A stretch of 64,000 nt of DNA, from the NCBI RefSeq assembly GCF_013372145.1, contig NZ_CP053827.1, positions 248,001-312,000 on the forward strand, written 5' to 3'. Each line of letters opens with the position of its first letter. The stretch's first letter is position 1. Shown one piece after another: positions 49,655 to 50,568 of the stretch. Source of the DNA: Campylobacter hyointestinalis subsp. hyointestinalis. GTDB lineage: Bacteria > Campylobacterota > Campylobacteria > Campylobacterales > Campylobacteraceae. The notes beneath the pieces are model-generated. The model was given only the letters and a program-made list of their open reading frames with translations, had not been told where the DNA came from and ran no database searches. The position numbers and the translations under genes are program-made.

Positions 49655-50509
49655 TTATTTTTTAAGATCTTTTAAAAATTCTTCTATATTGTATTTTGCT
49701 CTGTAAGCTTCGCTCATAAGATGGATCATGATATCGCCTAGGTCGATCACTGTCCAGTCATCGCTGCTCTCAACGCCTAGAAATTCTTCACCATTTGGTT
49801 TGAGTTCAGTTTTTAGATCGTCTAAAAGTGCGTAAGCATGGCGACCAGTAAGAGTCGTGGCTATGATGACGAATTTAGCTAAATATTCGCGACCTTGCAT
49901 ATCTACAACTTCGATATTTTCAGCTTTTTTTTCATCAAGTAGTTTCGTGATCCTATTTATCCTGTCTTGCATTTGTTTTTCCTCGTAAAATTTGATAACG
50001 TCCCTGCGTATAAGTTCTGGAACATTAGAAAAGTCAAGCTCGTCTCTGACTTTTGTCGATGAGATTTTAACATTTAAATCTAGTTTTTGCAAATTCGGCG
50101 GTACATAAATATCATCCCTTGAGGCGACTACGAACTTTACCAAGGTATTTAAAATGTTAAATTTATACCATTTTTCTAAATTTGCAAGCTGATCCGCGCC
50201 GATGATGAGATAGATCATACCCGGATTATAAATTTTTTTAAAATGCAAAACGCTTTCTAGGCTAGGTACGGCTCTATTTTGTTCTATTTCAAACTTACTA
50301 ATCTCTACTTTTTTTAAATTTCCCCAAAGAGTTTCGCACCAAACAAGGCGTTTTTTGGGATCTGTGCTAAATTTAGATTTAAATGGATTTAAAAATGTTG
50401 GGACAATGATGAGCTTATCTATATCTAAAACTAGCAAAGCGGTTTTTACTATTGCGTTATGACCGTTATGAGGAGGATCAAAACTTCCGCCGAAAATTGC
50501 AATATTCAA
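49655..50509 (-). CDS. nadD: NadD-RsfS fusion: nicotinate-mononucleotide adenylyltransferase + ribosome silencing factor
   Basis: 284 aa in one frame. Residues 1-180: NadD with nucleotidyltransferase motifs FGGSFDPPHNGH and ISSTKVRDEL. Residues 180-284: RsfS/Iojap with VVDMQGREYLAKFVIIAT and SSDDWTVIDLGDIMIHLMS. They are normally separate neighbours of about 180 and 105 aa. At the joint, ATG 49972 begins MQDRINRITKLL, preceded by AGGA, so a separate RsfS can still be initiated inside the fused gene. Couples NAD synthesis with a factor that blocks 50S-30S joining. Divergent from gapA. Confidence 0.85.
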   Translation of the reverse strand: MNIAIFGGSFDPPHNGHNAIVKTALLVLDIDKLIIVPTFLNPFKSKFSTDPKKRLVWCETLWGNLKKVEISKFEIEQNRAVPSLESVLHFKKIYNPGMIYLIIGADQLANLEKWYKFNILNTLVKFVVASRDDIYVPPNLQKLDLNVKISSTKVRDELDFSNVPELIRRDVIKFYEEKQMQDRINRITKLLDEKKAENIEVVDMQGREYLAKFVIIATTLTGRHAYALLDDLKTELKPNGEEFLGVESSDDWTVIDLGDIMIHLMSEAYRAKYNIEEFLKDLKK

Positions 50510-50568
50510 TATTTTTTAACCTTTTTTTTAGTAGAATTAAACTTAATTATACCCAAAAAAGGAATAAA

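Follow-up and report, generated by a model that had tools for sequence, protein, structure and literature searches.

That one gene can give rise to two proteins, a long one and a C-terminal one translated from its own start, is known from Cas11, which arises by internal in-frame initiation inside cas8/cas10 with an SD site before the internal ATG, a start that was tested by mutation and mass spectrometry (PMC11899642, citing McBride et al. 2020). The proteins considered here, NadD and RsfS, are unrelated to Cas8 and Cas11. RsfA/RsfS of E. coli is a ribosome silencing factor that binds L14 (uL14) (PMC3400551). In the separate nadD-rsfS pairs of Campylobacterales, nadD has its own stop near the rsfS start and no fused protein is encoded. 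The locus discussed here lies within a 64,000-nucleotide stretch of DNA from Campylobacter hyointestinalis subsp. hyointestinalis, referred to in full as the window, and it resembles these separate pairs (for example those of the C. jejuni/coli/volucris group) in gene order, domains, SD-start arrangement, and SD strength, but carries both domains in one frame. Other loci, for example in Campylobacter concisus, Sulfurospirillum cavolei, and Sulfurovum sp. AR, likewise have both domains in one frame and keep the internal start, although these were joined by other routes and most are older than the fusion in the window. A NadD with a C-terminal extension also defines the NCBIfam family NF005519 (PRK07152, 361 aa), but the match to this family is confined to the NadD part, and the window protein scores 138 against a cut-off of 315. 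No report of a NadD-RsfS fusion was found in the literature searched, which was covered in part, and such fusion proteins must already sit in sequence databases.

In the window, one 284-codon open frame (50509-49655, minus strand) begins with TTG and runs without a stop between the NadD and RsfS domains. Its parts are listed below.

49655-50509, minus strand: fused nadD-rsfS frame, 284 aa, TTG start, stop at 49657-49655
49976-50509, minus strand: NadD part, residues 1-178, placed by domain matches and motifs
49655-49972, minus strand: RsfS part, the 105-aa frame from the internal ATG, placed by domain matches
49970-49972, minus strand: internal ATG, the retained rsfS start codon, kept as ATG or TTG in all fused relatives
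49980-49984, minus strand: GAGGA, SD-like site of the internal start, pairing -5.9 kcal/mol
49973-49984, minus strand: junction spacer and site of a net 2-nt insertion, 12 nt here versus 10 nt in separate sisters

Pfam matches within the fused protein cover residues 5-156 (CTP_transf_like) and 186-278 (RsfS). The NadD part scores 132.3 bits against TIGR00482 (cut-off 112.45) over the full domain, residues 5-177, and contains the GGSFDPxHxGH and ISSTxxR nucleotide-binding motifs, which are nearly invariant in the alignment of relatives; the passage of the curated cut-off and the presence of these motifs point to a putative NaMN adenylyltransferase. The C-terminal part scores 89.9 bits against the RsfS/YbeB model TIGR00090 (cut-off 56.9; the family is also described by PF02410) and is a predicted RsfS by both score and modeled fold. 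AlphaFold2, supplied with 15 fused sequences, returned a model (mean pLDDT 90, pTM 0.78) in which a NadD fold and an RsfS fold are linked by a single continuous helix at residues 165-193. Foldseek matched the NadD fold to 1kaq and 2h29 and the RsfS fold to proteins on pre-50S particles (9ss4 and 7bl2, TM by target 0.86 and 0.82). No further protein match to a second nadD or rsfS copy was found in the genome (one contig, 1.75 Mb). The initial annotation had read nadD and rsfS as one frame with no stop at the joint and had estimated products of about 33 and 12 kDa. The frame is indeed open for its whole length with both domains complete, and the computed masses are 32.8 kDa for the fused protein and 12.2 kDa for the product from the internal ATG.

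On its 5′ side, nadD is divergent from gapA (ATG 50569, plus strand) across a gap of about 59 bp (window 50510-50568), so the nadD and gapA promoters must overlap. Two features in or near this gap bear on nadD expression.

50520-50529, minus strand: AAAAAAAAGG, weak SD-like site of the nadD TTG start, pairing -3.3 kcal/mol
50547-50552, minus strand: TATAAT, a possible -10 box of a nadD promoter, picked out by eye and missed by the consensus scan

The joint itself reads VIKFYEEKQ-MQDRI and is encoded by TACGAGGAAAAACAAATGCAAGAC. A comparison of the nadD 3′ end among relatives, as the initial annotation had proposed, was informative about how this joint came about. Among the genomes of the same genus that were compared, only one other is fused (G014, 96% identity); in 12 other genomes of the genus with linked nadD and rsfS the genes are separate, and in two more (G005 and G012) the locus is fragmented. 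One such fragment (L034, G005:C102:1-2000) has nadD in two opposite-strand pieces; misassembly of this fragmented MAG is the probable cause. In the nearest separate loci, from G013 and G003, nadD overlaps rsfS by 11 nt in a different frame, and the junctions read TTTTACAAGGAAAAAG-ATG and TTTTACAAGGAAAAAA-ATG as against TTTTACGAGGAAAAACAA-ATG in the window. The increase of the spacer from 10 to 12 nt shifted nadD from the out-of-frame overlap into the rsfS frame. The locus is best read as a normal nadD-rsfS pair in which a net 2-nt insertion, immediately 5′ of the rsfS start, has recently brought the two frames together. A difference of this kind, a 2-nt indel in an A-rich stretch, might also be put down to a sequencing or assembly error. 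We give that explanation next to no probability: more than 100 independent fused loci exist, and sequencing error is ruled out as the source of this fusion because the independent genome G014 shares the joint.

The fusion was initially treated as exceptional, a view that does not survive wider sampling, in which it proves common within the order. Junctions were collected from about 160 Campylobacterales genomes and 80 named records, all sampled loci being from this order, and one-frame loci made up 121 of the 243 with both genes on the same strand (71 representatives at 90% identity), a proportion that should not be read as a frequency because the second genome batch was picked largely for its fused look, and some records duplicate one genome. 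By record titles and shared contigs, fused loci fall in the Campylobacteraceae (including C. concisus), Sulfurospirillaceae (S. cavolei), Sulfurovaceae, Sulfurimonadaceae, Arcobacteraceae, and Helicobacteraceae, and nadD and rsfS are neighbors in most relatives whether fused or separate. The routes to a single frame vary: a 1-nt change in the C. concisus group, CAA in place of an in-frame TAA in the Sulfurovum group, and, at three loci (L209, L213, and L222), apparent loss of the NadD tail after ISSTxxR with a direct join to RsfS in which AAGGA...ATG/TTG is retained.

What these loci have in common is the internal start. A start codon with an SD-like site is present at the joint in all 71 representatives, and the internal start was also found in each of the 120 fused loci rechecked, with one locus that has a large insert (L061) left out. 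The start codon is ATG in 66 representatives and TTG in five; in those five the Leu at the start residue is coded by TTG every time, whereas TTG accounts for 3-11% of Leu codons in the same genes. Anti-SD pairing averages -5.45 kcal/mol in fused loci and -5.53 kcal/mol before separate rsfS genes (Mann-Whitney p = 0.74). Pairing of -4.5 or lower is seen at 96% of internal starts compared with 4.7% of 297 control in-frame ATGs from the same genes, a contrast slightly biased in favor of the internal start, which was taken as the best candidate within a 49-nt stretch. When codons were resampled with the peptide held fixed, using codon usage derived from the fused genes themselves, mean pairing was -2.07. 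With a median per-gene p of 0.08, it is the set as a whole, and not the individual gene, that carries the SD signal; the pooled Fisher p of 6e-23 ignores the relatedness of the fused genes. Arg codons directly before the start are AGG in 40 of 44 cases as opposed to 54 of 645 elsewhere. The SD motif also occupies all three codon registers (39, 22, and 10 representatives), which indicates that nucleotides, and not the peptide, are being kept.

The window offers a single instance of this pattern. The internal ATG at 49972 with AGGA upstream had been correctly located in the initial annotation, and GAGGA (49984-49980) is separated from the ATG (49972-49970) by 7 nt in RNA that is almost without structure. 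The long ORFs of the window contain 303 further in-frame internal ATGs, of which 11 are preceded by SD pairing just as strong. The site by itself is mildly unusual, and the significance comes from the 71 diverged fused genes. Because the fusion in this lineage is young, extending to two species, its intact SD proves nothing alone, and the youth of the fusion would suit an account in which only the fused protein is made and the internal SD and ATG are leftovers. We consider this account very unlikely in view of the universal retention of the site among diverged fused genes and of two further observations. Four-fold sites match at only 30-57% between diverged fused genes, near saturation, and yet the SD persists. 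In three fused genera, same-residue codons within the SD are identical in 96%, 100%, and 100% of comparisons versus 61%, 81%, and 50% over the remainder of the gene; the constraint is weaker in family f7 (69% versus 59%, from few comparisons). For the fused set, a vestigial SD is ruled out by this synonymous constraint together with four-fold saturation. The internal start appears to be conserved beyond protein constraint across the fused set, to which the pair of loci from the window's genus is too young to contribute, and the argument for a kept start is one that comes from lineages other than that of the window. Conservation of this kind across the fused set and an in-frame start with an SD site at a domain border are the points shared with Cas8/Cas11. 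The likeness is one of working and not of proven membership.

We think it probable that fused loci make both NadD-RsfS and free RsfS, with the rsfS start under selection and the fusion nearly neutral. The dual output that had been suggested for the window now has strong comparative sequence support in the conserved starts with SD-like sites and in the synonymous constraint on them. In the proposed mechanism, ribosomes would start at the nadD TTG (SD -3.3) and read through to give the 32.8-kDa NadD-RsfS, and since nadD has no stop of its own here, every full-length NadD would carry an RsfS tail. Ribosomes would also initiate at ATG 49972 (SD -5.9, poorly structured RNA) to give the 12.2-kDa free RsfS. 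With a weak SD and a TTG start for nadD and a stronger SD inside the gene, free RsfS would probably be made at the higher rate. The internal SD is the stronger of the two in 39 of 48 representatives with a readable nadD start, and therefore free RsfS may be the main form of RsfS and would do the ribosome work. Free RsfS might instead come from proteolytic cleavage, or from an internal promoter, and not from internal initiation on the long message. A promoter within the gene would use the same SD and ATG, and there are promoter-like matches 5′ of that start (e.g., 50093-50064 and 50242-50214, minus strand), but these are weak and close to the background of AT-rich sequence, shuffles of which give a mean of 5.4 such matches. 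Cleavage would give no reason for a start codon and SD to be kept at the nucleotide level. Both sources strike us as quite improbable relative to internal initiation. No terminator was found between the NadD and RsfS domains at the window locus.

Whether the long form matters in its own right is best approached through the history of the fusion. On a tree of NadD and RsfS with the junction omitted (163 rows), parsimony gives 33 changes between the fused and separate states compared with a mean of 52 for shuffled labels, and at least 23 changes when only branches with support of at least 95 are counted; the tree is built on a single short locus and includes many MAGs, and gene transfer or assembly errors would inflate these counts. 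Some separate loci are nested among fused ones (such as L145 in genus g31 of family f20, and L248 beside L122 and L149), which implies that a working rsfS start was needed before the split. An alternative that keeps the dual output holds that the fusion itself was selected, with the long form serving to link NAD synthesis with ribosome silencing; it might, for instance, bring NadD to the large subunit or render RsfS responsive to NAD precursors. Fusions did arise many times, whole groups are mostly fused (f20 and the C. concisus group), and the model joins the domains by a continuous helix. We nevertheless judge this alternative unlikely because the state flips to and fro among near relatives, linker length and sequence vary freely, SD strength is equal in the fused and separate states, and nothing connects the two activities. 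The same doubt attaches to the bolder picture of a device, evolved again and again, that makes two proteins from one gene and in which the long form has a role of its own, either as a rigid NadD-RsfS rod or as an RsfS that senses NAD precursors. If it were true, the rod would bring NAD synthesis to the large ribosomal subunit, and free RsfS would compete for the uL14 site. The initial proposal of a tie between ribosome hibernation and NAD synthesis through the fusion finds no support: the state has changed at least 23-33 times, often between near relatives, which is what a nearly neutral fusion would lead one to expect. Under the nearly neutral reading that we prefer, selection would retain the rsfS start in each lineage and leave the relative frame of the two genes at the joint free to drift. 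With free RsfS available in either state, joining or splitting the frames would change little, which would explain the frequent switching, and fusion and fission would recur.

These loci amount to an experiment on the joining and splitting of bacterial genes that nature has run many times, one that shows how a gene fusion can be near-neutral and reversible and that provides strong evidence for an internal translation start kept by selection inside a coding sequence. Annotation lists one product at fused loci where two are probably made. The same loci make it possible to test cleanly, in the laboratory, whether RsfS still functions with a different enzyme attached to it.

Several loci in the sample depart from the common arrangement. 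At L061 (G058:C1:1818000-1821000), the NadD-RsfS frame has 582 aa, and its NadD domain is interrupted midway by a long, repeat-like insert of low complexity. In family f18 (L075 in G089, L087 in G106, and the genomes G120 and G132), nadD and rsfS are close but on opposite strands and no longer form one operon. In L101-L107 (genera g10 and g11 of family f1) and in family f14, RsfS was found with no NadD match to this query, which suggests a diverged or replaced NaMN adenylyltransferase in these groups. Finally, RsfS matches lie within open frames of 645-649 aa at G156:C1:1577604-1577933 and G120:C1:1420574-1420900; this may be a further fusion of RsfS, or the length of the frames may be due to chance.
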